From assembly GCF_000379525.1 (NCBI RefSeq), contig NZ_KB902528.1, positions 1-46,650 of the forward strand: a DNA stretch of 46,650 bases. Reading direction: 5' to 3'. A model generated the notes under the pieces. That model did no database searches, was not told the origin of the DNA, and was given only the letters and a program-made list of their open reading frames with translations. Position 1 is the first letter of the stretch; each line of letters starts with the position of its first letter. Below, piece by piece: positions 2,172-46,650 of the stretch. The position numbers and the translations under genes are program-made. The DNA is from Lamprocystis purpurea DSM 4197 (GTDB lineage: Bacteria > Pseudomonadota > Gammaproteobacteria > Chromatiales > Chromatiaceae).

Positions 2172-2723
2172 GTGTTTCCAACACCCGTGCGCGTGTTCTT
2201 GACCAAGGGCATCGGCGTTCACCGCCACGCCCTGACCGCCTTCGAGCTGGCGTTGCGCGATGCCGACATCGAGCAGCAGAACCTGGTCTATGTCTCGTCA
2301 ATCGTCCCGCCCCACTGCGCCCTGATCCCCCGCGAGGTCGGCGTCGAGGCTCTCAAGCCCGGCGACATCACCTTCTGTGTGATGGCCCGGATCGAGACCA
2401 ACGAGCCCGGCCGCCGCATCCATGCCAGCATCGGACTCGCCCGACCCGCCGACCCCGATGGCTATGGCTACATCTCCGAACACCACGGATTCGGCCAAAC
2501 AGCCGTGCAGAGCGGGGACCATGCCGAAGACCTGGCCGCCAGCATGCTCGCCAGCACGCTCGGGCTGGATCTGGACCCGGAGGTCGCCTGGAACGAGCGT
2601 CGCAGCATCTACGAGCACAGCAACCTGGTGATCGAGAGTCTGTCGATGACCGCGGCGACTGAAGGCGACCCCCATGGGCGCTGGACCTGCGCGGTCAGTG
2701 CGGCCGTGTTTCTGTTCTCCTGA
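2172..2723 (+). CDS. pdaD: Pyruvoyl-dependent arginine decarboxylase
   Basis: Decarboxylates arginine to agmatine using a pyruvoyl group made by self-cleavage of the chain. The 183-residue product has the cleavage context LVYVSSIVPP with the Ser-Ser pair at 42-43. In this family the second Ser becomes the pyruvoyl group and the chain splits into beta and alpha subunits. The C-terminal segment (WNERRSIYEHSN and following) matches the alpha chain. The start is a GTG, supported by AAGAGGAA about 7 bases upstream; a second in-frame GTG lies 15 bases further on. The gene is divergent from agmatinase, so the 111-bp gap at 2061-2171 must hold both promoters, though no clear operator was recognised there. 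Confidence 0.88.
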   Translation: MFPTPVRVFLTKGIGVHRHALTAFELALRDADIEQQNLVYVSSIVPPHCALIPREVGVEALKPGDITFCVMARIETNEPGRRIHASIGLARPADPDGYGYISEHHGFGQTAVQSGDHAEDLAASMLASTLGLDLDPEVAWNERRSIYEHSNLVIESLSMTAATEGDPHGRWTCAVSAAVFLFS

Positions 2724-2738
2724 GGCCGCACGCGCACC

Positions 2739-2872
2739 GGCCGCGATCATCGTTTCGGCCGGGCGCGTCGGTCCGCACAGCGGACCCTACGGAAACACCG
2801 TGACCCGCAGGGTCCGCTGCGCGGACCGACAACCGTGCCGATCGCACGGTGGCCAGGTTTATAACCAAGGCC
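2739..2872. repeat. TIR-bounded palindromic element, copy A
   Basis: A 134-bp intergenic element. Its ends (2739-2760 and 2851-2872) are inverted copies of a 22-bp sequence of the type GGCCnnGATCATCGTTtCGG. The core is a large hairpin: left arm 2770-2790 and right arm 2807-2827, each itself the palindrome GGTCCGC-ACA-GCGGACC plus flank, with two mismatches between arms. It sits between the convergent ends of the arginine decarboxylase and mgtE genes, where the hairpin could stop transcription from both sides. Copies B, C and D share the same ends. Confidence 0.7.
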
Positions 2873-2879
2873 ATCTCGA

Positions 2880-4304
2880 CTACAGATAGATCAAGCTCAC
2901 CATCAGAAAAAACACCGCCACCGCCATGATATCGTTGCCGGTGGTGATGAAGACCCCGGTGGCCATCGCCGGGTCGATCCCCAGCCGGTCGAGCACCAGC
3001 GGGATGGTCGCCCCCACTGCCACGGCCAGTGTAATGACGGTGGTCAGTGCCAGACCGGCCGTGAGGGCCAGCCGCACCGGGTTGCCGACTTCCACCCACT
3101 GGGCCATGAACAGCACCAGGGCCATCAGCACGCCGGCGGCAATGGCCCCGTTGGCGAGGGCCGCGAGTAGTTCTTTGCCCAGCCGCCAGCCGAGATCGTC
3201 GAAGGTGACGGTGCCGGTCGAGAGACCCTGTACCGCCACGGTGGAGGCCTGGATGCCGGCATTGCCGGCGCTCGACATGACGATCGGAATGAAGGTGGCG
3301 AGGATGGCCGCCCGCGCCAACTGGTCCTCGAAGGCGCCGACCACGGCCGCCGACAGGGTGGCCCCGGCGAGCCCCAGCAGCAGCCAGGGCACCCGCCCGC
3401 GGACGATCCGCCCGATCGACTCGTCCGGGCGGGCGTCGCGCGGTAGACCGCTCATCCGCTTCATGTCCTCGGCGGCCTCGTCGCGGATCACCTGTTCCAG
3501 GCGCTGCGGTGTGATCCGGCCGATGAGCCGCCCGACGCGGTCCACCACCGGGACCACCGACAGTTCGTAGCGCTCGGCGATCCGCGCTACCTCTTCCTGA
3601 TCCGTATCCGGCCCGACGGCGATGAAGTCGGTGTGCATCATGTCGCCCACGCGCTCGGTGTCGGGCTGCAACAGGAGGTCGCGCAGCCGCAGATAGCCGA
3701 GCGGCCGCCGCTCGGCGTCGACCACATACACGGCATAGAGCCGCCCGATGGTGTGGGCGTGGGCACGGATCTCCTCGATGGTCTGGCCCACCGTCCAATC
3801 CGGCGGCACGACCACGAACTTGGGGCTCATGATGCTGGCGGCCGACTCGGCCTCGAAGGATGCCAGTTCAGTGATGGTCGTGTGCCCCTGGAGTAGGGGC
3901 AGCACCCGCTTGCGCAGTGCTTTGGGCAATTGCGCCAGGGCGGCGGCCGCCTCTTCCGGTTCCAGCGCGTCGATCACGTGTACCAGTCGTTCAACGGTGG
4001 CATCGGCGAGCAGCACATCGCGAAAGGTGTCGTCCAACTCGGCGATCACGCGCGCCTGCTCGGGGTCGAGCCAACGGAACAGCACCCGTGCGCGCTTGAG
4101 CGGCAGGTGCACGAAGAGTTCCACCACATGGGTCGGCGGCCAGGCCTGCAAGGCCGGCATCAGGGTCGTGCGTGCCCCGGCCTTGATGAGCTGCGCCGCC
4201 GCGTCGACGACCACCCGGTTGGCGGCACTGAGTTCACCCAGGTGCGAGCGGGTCCAGACCAGGGGCGGCGTCTGCGCGGGTGGGGTGGTGGGGGTTAAAG
4301 GCAT
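2880..4304 (-). CDS. mgtE: Magnesium transporter MgtE
   Basis: Inner-membrane Mg2+ channel/transporter gated by its cytoplasmic domains. From the chosen start it is 474 residues: a helical MgtE N domain (about 30-150), two CBS domains (about 158-270) and a five-helix membrane domain (about 300-474). The membrane part contains GNAGIQAST near 346 and TTGNDIMA near the end, in the region of the pore Asp. The ATG at 4304 is chosen because AGGAG lies 8 bases upstream and the product then begins MPLTPTTPP. The open frame extends 29 codons further up, but that extension has no family likeness. The gene stands alone and converges with the arginine decarboxylase gene. No Mg2+ riboswitch could be recognised upstream. 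Confidence 0.9.
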   Translation of the reverse strand: MPLTPTTPPAQTPPLVWTRSHLGELSAANRVVVDAAAQLIKAGARTTLMPALQAWPPTHVVELFVHLPLKRARVLFRWLDPEQARVIAELDDTFRDVLLADATVERLVHVIDALEPEEAAAALAQLPKALRKRVLPLLQGHTTITELASFEAESAASIMSPKFVVVPPDWTVGQTIEEIRAHAHTIGRLYAVYVVDAERRPLGYLRLRDLLLQPDTERVGDMMHTDFIAVGPDTDQEEVARIAERYELSVVPVVDRVGRLIGRITPQRLEQVIRDEAAEDMKRMSGLPRDARPDESIGRIVRGRVPWLLLGLAGATLSAAVVGAFEDQLARAAILATFIPIVMSSAGNAGIQASTVAVQGLSTGTVTFDDLGWRLGKELLAALANGAIAAGVLMALVLFMAQWVEVGNPVRLALTAGLALTTVITLAVAVGATIPLVLDRLGIDPAMATGVFITTGNDIMAVAVFFLMVSLIYL

Positions 4305-4807
4305 GTGGCGGCTCCTGAAGTTGGCGACCAGGTTCAGGCAACTGCGCTCCGGGTCGACGCGGGTCCGCTGGCGCAGGGCTGACGGTTGCACGGGGAGAGC
4401 TTACCAGCGGGCGGTGACTGGGGGATGAACAAAGCGACGCCTCCGGCCAGGAGCATCCCGCCCCGACGCCAGGCAGCCGTTTCGCTCGTTTTCGCCCACT
4501 TTCCGCGTCGCGCCGACAGTCACATCGCCCTGCTCTGCTTCTGTCGGCGCTCCTTGCAGGCAGACGAAAATCCTTCGCGATCTGGTATCGAATTTTCCGG
4601 CAATCGCCTAAAGTGATTACCGGGCAGGGATATAGTACTGCAGCGTTAATGAACCGAAAATGGTCCTGTGCTGCTGCGGCAGTTCCTCGTTCCGGCCGAT
4701 ACACGGGAGTCGCGCACTGGTCGAGGCTTTAGGCCACGCAGATGCGATGTCGACCGGCGAACGGCCATGGAAGGAACATCAGTCACCCAGGACGAAGCAT
4801 GTCCCCC
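4305..4807. other. Non-coding gap between mgtE and menE
   Basis: About 500 bases without a supported gene, holding the divergent control regions of mgtE and menE. A fragment GGTCGAGGCTTTAGGCC near 4721-4737 resembles the arms of hairpins at 8987-9081 and 9827-9886. An open frame runs through this stretch into menE, but its translation has no recognisable family and crosses the REP element, so it is not counted as coding. Confidence 0.5.
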
Positions 4808-4900
4808 GTGGGAGCGGCGTCCCGCCGCGATGCGGTGCCGGGGTGACCTACAAGGCTGCGGTTCCGCGCCCGGCCCGTCGCGGCGGGACGCCGCTCCCAC
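4808..4900. repeat. REP-like inverted repeat, copy 1
   Basis: Two perfect 23-bp inverted arms: 4808-4830, beginning GTGGGAGCGGCGTCCCGCCG, and 4878-4900, its exact complement. They flank a 47-bp spacer. Related copies lie at 11720-11812 (both arms, right arm diverged) and 14946-14968 (one arm). The element sits 20 bp upstream of the chosen menE start, so it would lie in the menE leader RNA or promoter. Confidence 0.8.
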
Positions 4901-4920
4901 AGGGTTGCATCAAGGCCCCG

Positions 4921-6429
4921 ATGACCAAGTCTCAAATGAATGATTCACCGACCTGCTCGACCGGGATGCGGGAGTTGGTTCCTGCCGTTTCGCTTGCCGC
5001 TGGAGCGGTCTTCGCCGGGGCGCCCTGGCACCGGGGTCCGGAGCCTGCGCTGATCACCGGGTCGGAGGCGGGGCAATCCGTCTGGAGCTATGCAGAGCTG
5101 GCCGGGCGGTCCGCGGCCCTGGCGGCGCGGCTCAGGGCGGAGGGTGTGCAGCCGGGCCAGTTGGTGGCGGTGCCGGAGCGGCCGGGGACGCACCTGATCT
5201 TGATGCTGCACGCGTTGGCGCAGAGTGACGCGGCGCTGTTGCCGATCCGCGCCGCGGCGGATGACCCGGCCGGCGACGCGCTGTTGGCGGGGACCGGTGC
5301 CGAGTGGGTCTGGCGGGCCGCCGGAACCGATGGCTTGAACGGCGGTCGGCTGGTTCGCTTGGCGTTGCCGCCCGCGCGGGTGACGCCGGGTGCGGTACCA
5401 GGGTCCGCGAACTGGTCCTCACCGCTGGCCTTGGTGGTGGAGACCAGCGGCAGCAGCGGCGCCCCGCGGGCGGCGATGCTGACTCAGGGCAATGTGCTGG
5501 CGGCGGCGGCGCTGAGTCATCGGCATCTGGATCTGCGCGCCGGTGATCGCTGGCTGTGCTGTCTGCCGCTGCGCCATATCGGCGGGCTCTCGATCCTCTA
5601 TCGCTGTGCCCTGGCCGGGGCCGCGGTGGTGCTCCATGACGGGTTCGACGCGGGCGCGGTGGCCGCCGCTATCGCGTCGCAGGCCGTGACGCACCTGTCG
5701 CTGGTGCCGCCGATGCTGGCGCGCCTGCTTGCCCTGGGGCACCCGCCGCCTGTGACGTTGCGGGTGGTATTGGTGGGCGGGCAGTCGCTCAGTCCGCCGC
5801 TGGCGCGGCAGGCCATCGCGGCCGGCTGGCCGTTGCACGTGACGTACGGGATGACCGAGACCGCGGCGCAGATCGCGACCTCGGCGCGTCTGGTGCAGGC
5901 TCCCGCGTCCGGAGTCATCGGCCAACCGCTGGCCGGTGTGGATCTGGACTGCCCGGCCTGTGCGGACGGTACCGGGCGGCTGCGGGTGCGCGGGCCGGTG
6001 GTGATGGCGGGTTACGCCAATCCGCAGCGAATGCCCGGCGTGGGGCTGGCGGACGGCTGGTTCACCACGTCGGATCTCGCCTGCCGGGGGCCGGACGGCG
6101 CGCTGCAGATCCTGGGTCGGGCCGATGAGGTGCTGGTGACCGGCGGGGTCAATGTCCATCCGGGGCGGGTGGAGTCGATGCTGGCCGAGGCGCCTGGAGT
6201 GAGCGAGGCGGCGGTCGTCGGTGTCGCGGACCCGGTGTGGGGCCAGCGGCTGGTCGCGCTCTATCGTGGCGAGGCGACGCCGGCGGCACTCGACGCCTGG
6301 TGTCGGGTCAGGCTGCCGGGAGCGGAGCGTCCGCGGCTCTTCCTGCCGCTGCCCGAGTTGCCCGTGCTCGCATCAGGCAAACTGGATCGGTGCGGGCTGC
6401 GCACGCTGGCTCAGGCGGCGGCCGGGTGA
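4921..6429 (+). CDS. menE: o-Succinylbenzoate--CoA ligase
   Basis: Activates o-succinylbenzoate to its CoA thioester in menaquinone synthesis. It is an adenylate-forming enzyme of 502 residues from the ATG at 4921, the first ATG after the REP element; starts at 4936 and 4966 are also possible. Visible motifs are the phosphate loop TSGSSGAPR near 176-184, YGMTE near 308, TSDL in the hinge-side core, GRADEVLVTGG near 399, and the C-terminal catalytic lysine in SGKLDR near 486. Family members usually have PKG after the phosphate loop; here it is PRA, a mild deviation. No other men genes are nearby, so the substrate is inferred from overall resemblance. Another short acyl-CoA ligase remains possible. 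Confidence 0.75.
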   Translation: MTKSQMNDSPTCSTGMRELVPAVSLAAGAVFAGAPWHRGPEPALITGSEAGQSVWSYAELAGRSAALAARLRAEGVQPGQLVAVPERPGTHLILMLHALAQSDAALLPIRAAADDPAGDALLAGTGAEWVWRAAGTDGLNGGRLVRLALPPARVTPGAVPGSANWSSPLALVVETSGSSGAPRAAMLTQGNVLAAAALSHRHLDLRAGDRWLCCLPLRHIGGLSILYRCALAGAAVVLHDGFDAGAVAAAIASQAVTHLSLVPPMLARLLALGHPPPVTLRVVLVGGQSLSPPLARQAIAAGWPLHVTYGMTETAAQIATSARLVQAPASGVIGQPLAGVDLDCPACADGTGRLRVRGPVVMAGYANPQRMPGVGLADGWFTTSDLACRGPDGALQILGRADEVLVTGGVNVHPGRVESMLAEAPGVSEAAVVGVADPVWGQRLVALYRGEATPAALDAWCRVRLPGAERPRLFLPLPELPVLASGKLDRCGLRTLAQAAAG

Positions 6430-42525: not shown

Positions 42526-42746
42526 GGCCTTGATCGTAATCCCGGCCGGCGGCGTGCGTCGTCAGGGCTTCCAGCCCTGACGGTGTCAGGCCAGGATGGC
42601 CTGACTACGCACCCGGCGAGCCCAAGTAGCCGGAGTCTTGATCGAGGCCGGAAAGCTGATCCACAGATGTCACAGATTTTTTCTTCATCTGTGACATCTG
42701 TGGACAATTCCGGATGATCGTTGTGGCCGGAACGGCGATCATGGCC
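42526..42746. repeat. TIR-bounded palindromic element, copy D
   Basis: A 221-bp element with the shared 22-bp ends at 42526-42547 and 42725-42746. It holds several hairpins: GTCAGGGCT-TCC-AGCCCTGAC and GTCAGGCCA-GGA-TGGCCTGAC inside outer GTGCGTnGTCAGG/CCTGACTACGCAC arms. It also has a perfect 17-bp inverted repeat, TCCACAGATGTCACAGA at 42660-42676 against 42688-42704. It ends 31 bp upstream of the SEFIR gene and so lies in or beside its promoter. Confidence 0.75.
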
Positions 42747-42777
42747 TGTCGGCGCGAACCAGAACCAGGAGGCGATC

Positions 42778-43677
42778 ATGCACGAGAACGGCGCTCACCC
42801 GCGGGTATTCATCAGCTACAGCCATGACAGTCCCGCGCACCGGGAGCGCGTGTTGCACCTGTCCGAACGGCTGCGCGCGGATGGGATCGACACCCGGCTG
42901 GACCAGTACGTGAACGGTACCCCGCCCGAGGGCTGGCCGCGCTGGATGCTGAATCAGCTCGACTGGGCGGAGTCCGTCCTGGTGATCTGCACCGCCACCT
43001 ACTATCGCCGGTTCCGCGGGCTCGAAGCGCCCGGCCTGGGCAAAGGGGTGGACTGGGAGGGCGCCGTCATCACCCAGGCGCTGTATGACGCGCGCAGTGT
43101 CACCGCTAAGTTCATGCCCGTGCTGTTCGCCGCAGAGGACGGCGGTTGCGTTCCCGAGCCCCTGCGCGGCCAAACCTTTTACATCCTGACAGCGGATCAG
43201 GCTTACCAGGCGCTTTATGCCGCGTTGCTCGGCCAGGCGGGTGTCGAGCCTGGTGCGCTCGGGGTGCCGCGGTGGCAGCCGCGCGCGTCGGCCACGCCGC
43301 TCGTTTTCGACGGCGACCAGCCGGCGATTGCCAAGCGCGTGGATGAACAGACCTGGCAGCAGCAGCGGCTGGTCCTGCGCGACCTGCTGGTGGCCCTCCC
43401 GGCCTGGCCGCTGGTGCGGGAGCGCAAAGCCTTGGTGGAGGCCGCGCTGGGCGGGCATCCCGCTGCGGCCAACCTGATCTGGGAGGATGACGGCTACACG
43501 GTGGCCGGGAATCTCATCCTGAAGCTGCATTTTTTCGATACCGTGCCGCTGCCTGACGGCCATCATGCGGTTTGCGGCCTCCTCGCCGAGATCCGCACGC
43601 GGCGCTGGGATCTGCACCCCGGCATTGGCGAACAGATGCAGGCGCTCGCCGCGGCCTTCGGGTGCCCGGCCGCCTGA
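42778..43677 (+). CDS. SEFIR-domain effector with C-terminal adaptor domain
   Basis: A 299-residue protein. Residues 1-150 are a SEFIR (TIR-related) domain: RVFISYSHDSPAHRERVLHL near 9-28, GIDTRLDQYVNGTPPEGWPRW, and SVLVICTATYYRRF near 68-81. Residues about 205-299 form a second domain that recurs at the N-terminus of the next protein (for example LRDLLVALPAWPLVRERKAL), matching an effector-associated domain. Such domains are thought to join effectors to sensors by like-with-like binding. AGGAGG lies 6 bases before the ATG at 42778. Whether this SEFIR domain degrades NAD+ or only signals is not known from sequence. It precedes the STAND gene by 100 bp in the same direction. Confidence 0.85.
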   Translation: MHENGAHPRVFISYSHDSPAHRERVLHLSERLRADGIDTRLDQYVNGTPPEGWPRWMLNQLDWAESVLVICTATYYRRFRGLEAPGLGKGVDWEGAVITQALYDARSVTAKFMPVLFAAEDGGCVPEPLRGQTFYILTADQAYQALYAALLGQAGVEPGALGVPRWQPRASATPLVFDGDQPAIAKRVDEQTWQQQRLVLRDLLVALPAWPLVRERKALVEAALGGHPAAANLIWEDDGYTVAGNLILKLHFFDTVPLPDGHHAVCGLLAEIRTRRWDLHPGIGEQMQALAAAFGCPAA

Positions 43678-43695
43678 GCGCTGTCGTCGTGCCGC

Positions 43696-43777: not shown

Positions 43778-46599
43778 ATGGATTCAACAAGTCCAGTCCA
43801 CGATGCCGACCGGACGCGCAAGTGCCTGCGCGACCTGCTGCTCCTGCTTCCGGCCTGGTCCCTGGTGCGGGACCGCAAGGCCTTCGTCGAGACCGCGCTG
43901 GGCCATCATCCCGCCGCGGCTGAACTGAACTGGGACGACGACGGCCCCACGGTCGCCGGCCAACTGGTGCAGCGCCTCGACTTTTTCGCCGCCCGGCGGA
44001 TCGACGGCCGCCATCCGGTCTGTGCTCTGCTCGCGGAGGTCAGCCGGCGCCAGTACGACGCCAACCCCGCGGTTAAGACCCTGGTCGACCAATTGGCCCA
44101 GGTTTGCGCCGATCCGGTCGGGTCGCGGCCCACCCGCTGTCCCTATCCCGGTCTGCTCGCCTACGACTGGGGTCGCGACCCGGAGCAGGCGCGGCTCTTC
44201 TTTGGCCGCGAGGCCGAGACGGCGGCCCTGCTGGAGCGGCTGGGCCAGCTCGCCGCGGGCGATCTGCTGGTGGTCTCCGGGGCCTCCGGGTCCGGCAAGT
44301 CCTCCCTGGTCAAAGCCGGGCTGTGGCGCGCGCTGCACGAACCGCCGCCGGATGAGCCGGCGACCATCGCCGACAGCCGCGACTGGGTGATCAGCGCCAT
44401 GAAGCCGAACTTCGTCAGCGACCCCTTCGAGGGCCTGGTGCAGAGTGTCCACTGCTGCGCCCGCCGCAGCGAGCTGGTGCCGCGTGACGAGGCGGTGCGG
44501 CTGCGGGCCGACCCGGATCAGTTTCCGCGCTTGCTCGACCGCCTGCTCGAAGGACGTCCGGCCTGGCTGCTGATCCTGGATCAACTGGAAGAGTTGTTCA
44601 CCCTGGTGCCCGCGCCCGACCGCGCGGCCTTCATCGCCTTCCTGCTGCGCGCCGTGGCCGACCCGCGGCTGCGCCTGGTGGCCACCATTCGCTCGGACTT
44701 TCTGTACCATCTCAACGATCACCCGGACCTGTGCCGCCTGCTCAACCGCCGGCCGCCCTACTTTGTGTCACCGCCGCCGCCGGACGCCCTGAGGCGCATG
44801 ATCGAGGGTCCCGCCCAGGCCGTGGGTCTGCGGCTCGACCCCCGGCTCAGCGCCCGTCTGCACCAGGAGGCGCAGGGCCAGAGCGGCGGTTTGGCCCTGC
44901 TCGGCGCCGTACTGGAGGACCTGTTCGACCGCTTCGGGACCAGCGCGGAGGGCCTGACCCTGGCGCACTATGAGGACCAACTGCATGGACTCCAGGGCAT
45001 CCTGACCGAGCGTGCCGACCGTGGGTTCAGGCTGCTCGATGAGGATCACGGGATCGACGGCGCGGCGGCCGAGGACCTGATGCGCCGGGTGTTCGCCGAG
45101 CTGGTCCGCATCGATCCGGACAGCCGCGAGCCGACCCGCCGGCGGGCGCCGCTCGCCCACTGGGCCGCGGCCGACCCGGCGCGCATCTTCATCGAGGTCT
45201 TCTCGCGCGCGCCCAGGGGGCGGGACGATCAGGTGCGGCTCCTGGTCTGCGGCGCGCGGGACGGCCAGCCGATGGTCGAGGTGGCGCATGAGGCCCTGCT
45301 GCGTCAATGGTCCCGACTGGCCGACTGGATCGGCGAGCAGGCCGAGGCTCTGGTCCGCCGGGACGAGGTCCGGCGCCAGGCCGCGCGCTGGGACCAGGCC
45401 GGCCGCCCCGATGACCAATTGCCGGTGCTGGGCGTGCGCCGCGAGCTGCGCGACCGGCTCCAGCGCGCCGGGCTCTGGGCCGGGCTGCGCGCCGATGCGC
45501 GGACGGCCTACTTTCTGGCCGAGGACGCTCCGGACGAACTGGCTGACCTGACCCGCCGGGCCTTCGAGCATGGCGCGGCCGACGCGGACGCCCTGACGCT
45601 GCTGTTCTGTCTGACCGCCCCCGGCCGCATCTGGAAGACCACCCGGACCCTGGGCGACTGGATCGGTACCCAGGAACCGGCGCTGGCCGACTGGCTGCGC
45701 GGCGGGTTGGATGCCGTCCTGGCGCTGCTGGTGCAGGATGAGGGCGCGCGCTGGTATCCCCGTCGGCTCGGCATCGGCGATCTGCTGGCGGTCTTGGGTG
45801 ATCGGCGCCCCGGGGTCGGCGTGCGCCTGGACGGCCTGCCTGGTCTCGACTGGATCGACATCGCGCCCGGTGCCTTCCACTGGCAGGACAAAGGCGAGCG
45901 CAAATCCATCGACCGGGCCTATCGGATCGCCCGTTATCCCATCACCAAGGCGCAGTATCAGGCGTTCATCGACGCGGCGGACGACTATGCCAACCCGGAG
46001 TGGTGGCAGGAAGGTTACCTGGCGCCGACCCCGGATGATCCACGCTGGGACCAGCCCAACCGTCCGCGGGTCAATGTCGCCTGGGTGGAGGCCCTGGCCT
46101 ATTGCCGCTGGCTCACCGCCCGGTATCGCCAGGCGGGTCTGATCGATGCCGGTGCGGTCATCCGGCTGCCCACTGAGTTTGATGGGAGCGCGCCGCACGC
46201 GGCCGTCAGGACGCCCGCCAGTACCCTTGGGGCGGGGACTACGGCACGGGCCTGGCCAACGTCGACGAGACTCCGGTCGACGCCGGGGGTCTTTATCTGC
46301 GCGAGACCACGGCGGTGGGACTCTATCCCCGCGGTGCCTCCCCGGACGGCCTGCGCGACTGCGCCGGCAATGTTTGGGAGTGGTGTCTCAACAAGCACGA
46401 GAACCCGGCTGATGCAGACATGAAAGGTGAGGCAGGCCGTGCCTTGCGCGGCGGTTCCTGGCTCAATGACCCAGCCTTCGCGCGCGTTGTCTCTCGCTAC
46501 GGGAACTACCCTACGTACCGTAACCGCTCGGTTGGGTTCCGTGTGGTGTGTGCGTGCCCCATTCCTCTGAACACTGATCCACTGGTCACTGAACACTAA
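43778..46599 (+). CDS. STAND NTPase sensor with FGE/C-type-lectin-like domain (one frameshift)
   Basis: About 940 residues when one frameshift is repaired. Residues 1-108 are the adaptor domain shared with the SEFIR protein. An nSTAND-type NTPase follows, with Walker A SGASGSGKSS (about 166-175) and Walker B LLILDQLEELF (about 264-274). Next is a helical region ending in the typical VEVAHEALLRQWSRLADWI. The last part (from about 688, DWIDIAPGAFHWQ) is a formylglycine-generating-enzyme-like domain. At 46181-46183 the frame reads RLPTEF-DGSAPHA; adding one base gives EFEWERAARGRQDARQYPWGG, the expected motif, and then runs on to DCAGNVWEW, RGGSW and GFRVV with stop at 46599. The uncorrected frame would end at 46423. 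The ATG at 43778 has GAGGA 6 bases upstream. It is the sensor half of a predicted defence pair with the SEFIR gene. Confidence 0.85.
46441..46599 (+). other. Probable DGR variable region in the FGE domain
   Basis: The last ~160 bp of the STAND gene encode R-G-G-S-W, then spaced R...R...P..R and GFRVV, the layout of C-type-lectin-fold variable regions in diversity-generating retroelements. At the 17 variable codons between 46462 and 46530, 14 end in C or T (ctc, aat, gac, gcc, ttc, gtt, gtc, tct, tac, aac, tac, tac, aac, cgc). This is as expected if a template of AAY codons had been changed at its adenines. No reverse transcriptase or template repeat is in the window. Ordinary FGE domains share the R-G-G-S-W skeleton, so the codon pattern is the main extra clue. 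Confidence 0.5.
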
Positions 46600-46600
46600 A

Positions 46601-46615
46601 CCGCGCCCAGCGCGG
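46601..46615 (+). promoter_or_regulatory. GC hairpin directly after the variable region
   Basis: CCGCGC-CCA-GCGCGG, starting one base after the stop codon of the STAND gene. In studied retroelements a short GC-rich hairpin lies just downstream of the variable region and helps target homing, so its place here fits. It could also be a simple terminator, although no T-run follows. Confidence 0.4.
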
Positions 46616-46650
46616 TATGCGATGTTGTTGGATGGGCTCGGCCCCGGCAG

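Follow-up and report, generated by a model that had tools for sequence, protein, structure and literature searches.

The window analyzed here is a stretch of 46,650 nucleotides that constitutes the entire contig C165 of the Lamprocystis purpurea DSM 4197 assembly (genome G000), such that its last base, 46650, is also the contig end. Close to this end, on the plus strand, lies a gene (protein P0001) with Pfam matches to an EAD8 adaptor domain (PF19961, 43817-44056), an nSTAND1 NTPase domain (PF20703, 44141-45412, E = 1.4e-84, residues 134-557), and an FGE domain that is split by a change of reading frame. The N-terminal part of the FGE domain (45881-46180; PF03781 positions 24-116, E = 1.5e-13) is read in the frame of the STAND body, which continues to a stop at 46423, and the C-terminal, C-type-lectin-like part (46201-46599, up to a TAA stop) is read in another. 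Protein matches spanning 43820-46186 and 46177-46596 fall in different frames and the FGE profile matches meet at 46180, placing the change within 46177-46186 as either a true break or an assembly error; an unbroken orthologue of the gene is present in the congener G004. If the break is real, the window copy probably lacks a working sensor function. The tail holds a variable repeat (VR; 46432-46568, with a 114-nt core at 46441-46554) that aligns with a template repeat of G004 with an 83% match, the differences clustering at template adenines, and it is followed on the same strand by the start of a dispersed MITE-like repeat (46597-46650), which the contig end cuts. The final 125 nt of the window (46526-46650) recur without a mismatch at the very end of another contig, C123. 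Just upstream of the STAND gene, a plus-strand ORF at 42721-43677 carries a SEFIR/TIR domain followed by EAD8 (PF08357, 4.4e-11; PF13676, 1.4e-9; PF19961, 2.8e-9) and is a candidate effector; the stretch 42697-43681 has 90% identity in G004. EAD8 occurs at five places in the L. purpurea genome, two in the window, one on C123, and two on C14. PADLOC returned a single weak match for the window protein (mad8, 6.2e-4), none for the C123 protein, and no useful name for either STAND protein.

An earlier note, made from this DNA alone, had proposed that the tail is the C-terminal end of a STAND defence protein diversified by a diversity-generating retroelement (DGR). The STAND gene is indeed present, but from about 46177-46186 onwards its body and the tail are read in different frames. 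The lectin-like character of the tail was borne out by a match to PF03781 positions 126-254 over 46201-46596 (E = 1e-16), by a profile of FGE-type domains that, among 34 PDB sequences, matched the Treponema variable protein 2y3c (3.2e-20), and by the motifs R-G-G-S-W and G-F-R-V-V, both of which are encoded inside 46441-46554; a predicted structure of the FGE domain was too poor to be used (mean pLDDT 43) and was set aside. The count of 14 NNY codons among 17 candidates is a weak clue, as the NNY background of the gene body is already 0.558 (P about 0.02); with the ppb02 template as a guide, A is the first or second base of 13 codons, of which the window VR has 10 in NNY form. Fifty-three matches to an FGE-sulfatase domain in a single 6.9-Mb genome are, by our reckoning, many, and in places, as on C183, C69, and C111, several fall within one gene. 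Since a loose RGGSW...GFR-like signature was found at 18 of the 30 loci listed for these 53 matches, some of which overlap, the signature is also weak by itself, and we rejected the NNY count and the lectin signature as proof of a DGR. Both the common signature and the weak codon bias would suit a reading in which these are ordinary FGE-type tails that diverged through point mutation and selection without any retroelement. A GC hairpin is present one base past the stop at 46597-46599, as the earlier note had it, with a 6-bp stem (CCGCGC/GCGCGG), but it is the end of the dispersed repeat and was rejected as a DGR recognition hairpin.

The cassette of a DGR was found in the congener G004, a metagenome-assembled genome of Chromatiaceae bacterium isolate ppb02 (record JACDZG010000002.1; locus L148, G004:C152:90500-99500). 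There, the orthologue of the C123 gene (90925-93705, plus strand) and that of the window gene (95782-98643, minus strand) are convergent, and between these two targets lie a gene for a 387-aa reverse transcriptase (RT; 93713-94876, minus strand), a plus-strand Avd frame placed head-to-head with the RT, and a template repeat (95387-95523, minus strand). The AAC-rich codons of this single template repeat align with the varied codons of both target genes. The RT matched RVT_1 at 2.8e-15 and, as its best PDB match, 8ub7 at 4.5e-47, an entry that also contains an Avd chain; its NCBIfam matches were all below cut-off, the best of them being a group II intron RT, and provided no DGR-specific name. 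The Avd frame matched bAvd at 2.2e-17 and, at 80.4 bits, narrowly exceeded the 80-bit cut-off of NF033474. The ATG codons of the RT and Avd overlap on opposite strands in the tetranucleotide CATG (L148, about 4375-4378). A further DGR is present in the same genome at L279 (G004:C347:20000-28000), where an RT and a template-like copy are accompanied by a partial Avd match and by two same-strand FGE targets.

A search of the whole L. purpurea genome with the VR alone, in which 16 of 16 candidates were scored, recovered the full-length repeat at just two of them, on C165 and C123. The C123 near-copy sits at the contig end within an intact gene that encodes EAD8, nSTAND1, and FGE like the window gene. 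In what follows, the adenine yardstick for the L. purpurea VRs is the template repeat of ppb02 and not a template of their own; some of the differences at other bases may thus be differences between the templates of the two species. Over the 114-nt core, the C123 and window VRs differ at 21 sites, 16 of which are at the 24 template adenines (Fisher, 7.7e-10), the outcome that the earlier note had expected of a near-copy, and every one of the 11 amino-acid differences affects a codon that has A as its first or second base. Within G004 itself, each difference between the template and its two VRs over the 114 nt is at a template adenine (11 of 11 and 9 of 9). Against this same template, 16 of the 19 differences of the C123 VR and 12 of the 19 of the window VR are at adenines. 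The three remaining differences of C123 are all common to the genome G006, and for this reason may stem from the template and not from decay; of the seven non-adenine differences of the window VR, four are silent C-to-T changes that are absent from C123 and that fit either decay or older rewriting.

Comparison between species gave the same concentration of change. Relative to its G004 orthologue, the C123 gene has changed at 19/24 template-adenine sites, 3/90 other VR sites, and 129/2619 sites of the gene body, and the window gene at 13/24, 7/90, and 187/2690 (7%), respectively (Fisher, adenine versus non-adenine sites: 2.8e-14 for the C123 pair, 2.1e-6 for the window pair). Other pairings were less uniform: differences were at adenines in 14/20, 15/21, and 15/21 cases for G005 against its own template, which is less clean, in 5/8 for G006 against the G004 template (P = 0.01), in 13/20 for another G004 gene (on its contig C178), and in 10/16 and 17/21 for G007 against the G005 template. 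The site pattern of both orthologue pairs is best read as the trace of adenine-directed rewriting. Point mutation with selection is contradicted by this clustering of differences at template adenines, as well as by the RT, Avd, and template that occupy the syntenic spot in the congener, and we consider divergence without a retroelement extremely improbable. The central claim of the earlier note, that of a DGR variable repeat at the tail, is upheld by a concentration of differences at template adenines both within the genome and between species. Our main reading, to which we assign a probability of about 0.88, is that the window tail is the VR of a DGR target gene, which when whole would be an EAD8-nSTAND1-FGE gene, and that the C123 and window genes are the orthologues of the convergent pair in ppb02.

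The flanks of the two L. purpurea genes are collinear with the G004 locus. On the left, the last blocks of C123 before the gene match the left side of G004 at 95-97%, and on the right, window positions 9954-43681 match its right side in long, reversed blocks at 90-99%; the C123 and window contig ends therefore face the spot of the G004 cassette. The earlier note had placed the RT and template beyond the right edge of the window or elsewhere in the genome, and the congener does have both beyond that edge, but no RT, template, or Avd over the cut-off was found in the L. purpurea assembly, which consists of 211 contigs and breaks at the cassette spot. The same note had named as grounds against its reading either a genome lacking an RT and template or differences from a near-copy that were not adenine-specific; the differences proved to be concentrated at template adenines, and the lack of an RT and template pertains to an assembly broken exactly at the place in question. 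Because of that break, the gap between the contig ends is a possible site for the cassette. A 2-kb cassette contig could nevertheless have been retained, given that contigs as short as 1317 bases are in the assembly (40 contigs sampled). We hold the odds to be about even that the cassette is still present in L. purpurea, in the gap between the C123 and C165 ends.

Several candidates for the missing parts were rejected. The RVT_1 fragment on C179 covers profile positions 143-205 only, and that contig was absent from the results of the VR search; two weak bAvd matches, on C164 and C179, stayed below the cut-off of 40 bits (25 and 19.9), and C164 had no match when scanned with the G004 RT and Avd. 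An N-terminal, DGR-like RT remnant adjoins an FGE gene on C1 (L275, G000:C1:262000-274000; remnant at 5775-6107, plus strand). Its RT match is limited to residues 8-118 and its frame has no Pfam match, so it was rejected as a working DGR, and no repeats of at least 60 nt were found near it in L275:4000-9500; by these features, the locus is a putative second, decayed DGR locus. Trans action has been proposed for loci of Thiohalocapsa sp. PB-PSB1 (PMC10907252), and a DGR at another locus might likewise rewrite the C123 and window VRs. Against this, the VR search turned up no further template-like copy (all 16 of its 16 candidates were scored), and the RT matches in the genome are two fragments only; we regard rewriting in trans as very improbable.

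A more serious alternative is that a DGR produced the VR, that its cassette has since been lost in L. purpurea, or replaced there by repeats or a transposon, and that the window gene is decaying. The missing RT, Avd, and template suit this explanation, as do the entry of both the C165 and C123 ends into the dispersed repeat, the frame break and the four private silent changes of the window gene, the RT remnant on C1, and a congener, G007, that keeps both targets with no RT or template found between them. There is also precedent in PB-PSB1, where such loci have been broken by repeats and transposons (PMC10907252). The C123 gene, however, is intact, its three non-adenine differences may reflect the template in view of their occurrence in G006, and a repeat at both sides would be enough by itself to break the assembly. 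Weighing these points, we give the loss of the cassette not quite an even chance.

In G007, a congener in three contigs, about 3.4 kb separate the two targets, which partly contain internal stops, and nothing of note in this interval matched an RT, Avd, or template; it contains a 436-aa ORF, read by eye as a transposase, with a weak UPF0236 match below the cut-off. Rhabdochromatium marinum DSM 5261 (L198) retains the order target-RT-Avd-template-target, although its RT is fragmented; the RT and Avd are divergent there as well. Among 12 named loci, RT and Avd matches were found at two (L191, which is ppb02, and L198, which is Rhabdochromatium) and at none of the other 10. With no cassette found between the G007 targets and one present in ppb02 and Rhabdochromatium, either a live or a lost cassette is possible in L. 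purpurea.

The repeat into which both contig ends run is a MITE-like element with inverted ends, roughly 80-90 nt long, that is spread through G000, G004, and G006. Thirty-eight of the 40 scored matches (from 89 candidates) of one search were short hits to this dispersed element, copies of which elsewhere have the inverted ends TAAACCGCGCC...GGCGCGGTTTA. It lies at the same base in C165 and C123, where its first bases provide the TAA stop of both genes alike, and is absent at the stop of the C123 orthologue in G004. Upstream, 21 of 114 VR sites differ and divergence is far greater in the gene bodies, yet the two contigs agree at each of their final 125 nt; in G004, the target ends form a 303-nt inverted repeat that is 89% complementary. 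A conversion tract would account for this pattern: since the tails share 125 nt or more without a difference, a transposon-like insertion at one and the same base among them, gene conversion between the arms of the inverted repeat may swap the two tails in addition to adenine mutagenesis, though we think it rather unlikely.

Under the main reading, that of a DGR target gene, the cassette would copy template RNA into adenine-mutated cDNA, which would replace the VRs. The lectin-like end of the sensor would bind a ligand, leading to nSTAND1 assembly, and EAD8-EAD8 contacts may recruit the neighbouring SEFIR/TIR-EAD8 protein as the effector. Bacterial SEFIR proteins are capable of NAD depletion. 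The ppb02 cassette resembles the DGR for which the RT-Avd complex has been solved (PDB 8ub7, 4dwl; presumably that of Bordetella phage BPP-1) in having an RT and Avd that are homologous by sequence and in the adenine-specific change from template to VR. It differs in that STAND proteins take the place of a phage receptor-binding protein as targets in ppb02 and L. purpurea, in that there are two convergent targets, and in the head-to-head placement of the Avd frame and RT in G004.

Thiohalocapsa sp. PB-PSB1, which we take to be a member of the Chromatiaceae, offers a second comparison. Its DGR 6, as described by Dore et al. 2024 (PMC10907252), has two EAD8-nSTAND1-FGE targets with the VR in the C-terminal FGE and an EAD8 peptidase nearby, a likeness in architecture, with the arrangement of the L. 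purpurea pair taken from G004 synteny. The transposon- and MITE-like decay considered above also has a parallel in that genome, where MITE-like arrays took the place of the RT or template at some loci (PMC10907252). Unlike the DGR 6 description there, the partner of the window gene is SEFIR/TIR-EAD8 and not trypsin-EAD8; the pairing of trypsin-EAD8 with EAD8-nSTAND1-FGE is instead matched on C14 of L. purpurea. At that locus (L277, G000:C14:33000-42000), a trypsin-EAD8 gene (2319-3266, plus strand) adjoins an EAD8-nSTAND1-FGE gene (3741-6356, minus strand) in which the FGE match is cut, ending at profile position 184.

Conflict systems that combine EAD, STAND, and FGS with DGRs have been described by Kaur et al. 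2021 (PMC8195603), and Lamprocystis was named as a host of related ternary systems by Kaur et al. 2020 (PMC7159879). Like the systems in the former, the present genes have an N-terminal EAD on a STAND NTPase (nSTAND1 being included there), an FGS lectin-like domain, more EAD copies on effectors, and, as is often the case, an RT and an Avd-like protein; unlike them, they involve SEFIR, which is absent from the accessible text of PMC8195603, and two convergent targets sharing one template, a layout not found in it. No SEFIR-EAD8 partner turned up in the DGR and EAD literature covered by our small search (the accessible parts of PMC7159879, PMC8195603, and PMC10907252), nor did the literature searched yield anything on Thiodictyon with a retroelement or SEFIR with an effector-associated domain.

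DGRs acting on EAD8-STAND sensors have thus already been described in aggregate-forming bacteria, and the L. purpurea and ppb02 genes add what appears to be a new instance. An immune role for the L. purpurea sensors is proposed from their architecture, and that of the PB-PSB1 targets is likewise only proposed by Dore et al. (PMC10907252). If the tails are indeed exchanged by conversion, there would be a second route of spread, by which a gain made in one sensor could be copied by the other. The convergent two-sensor layout is extended to a second named organism, Rhabdochromatium marinum, and G007 represents a congener with two such targets and no RT or template found between them. With orthologues that are 93-95% identical in the body yet differ at 54-79% of template-adenine sites, these genes provide a clean instance of DGR-driven change of a STAND sensor in the group of Chromatiaceae that includes the Lamprocystis and Thiodictyon records.
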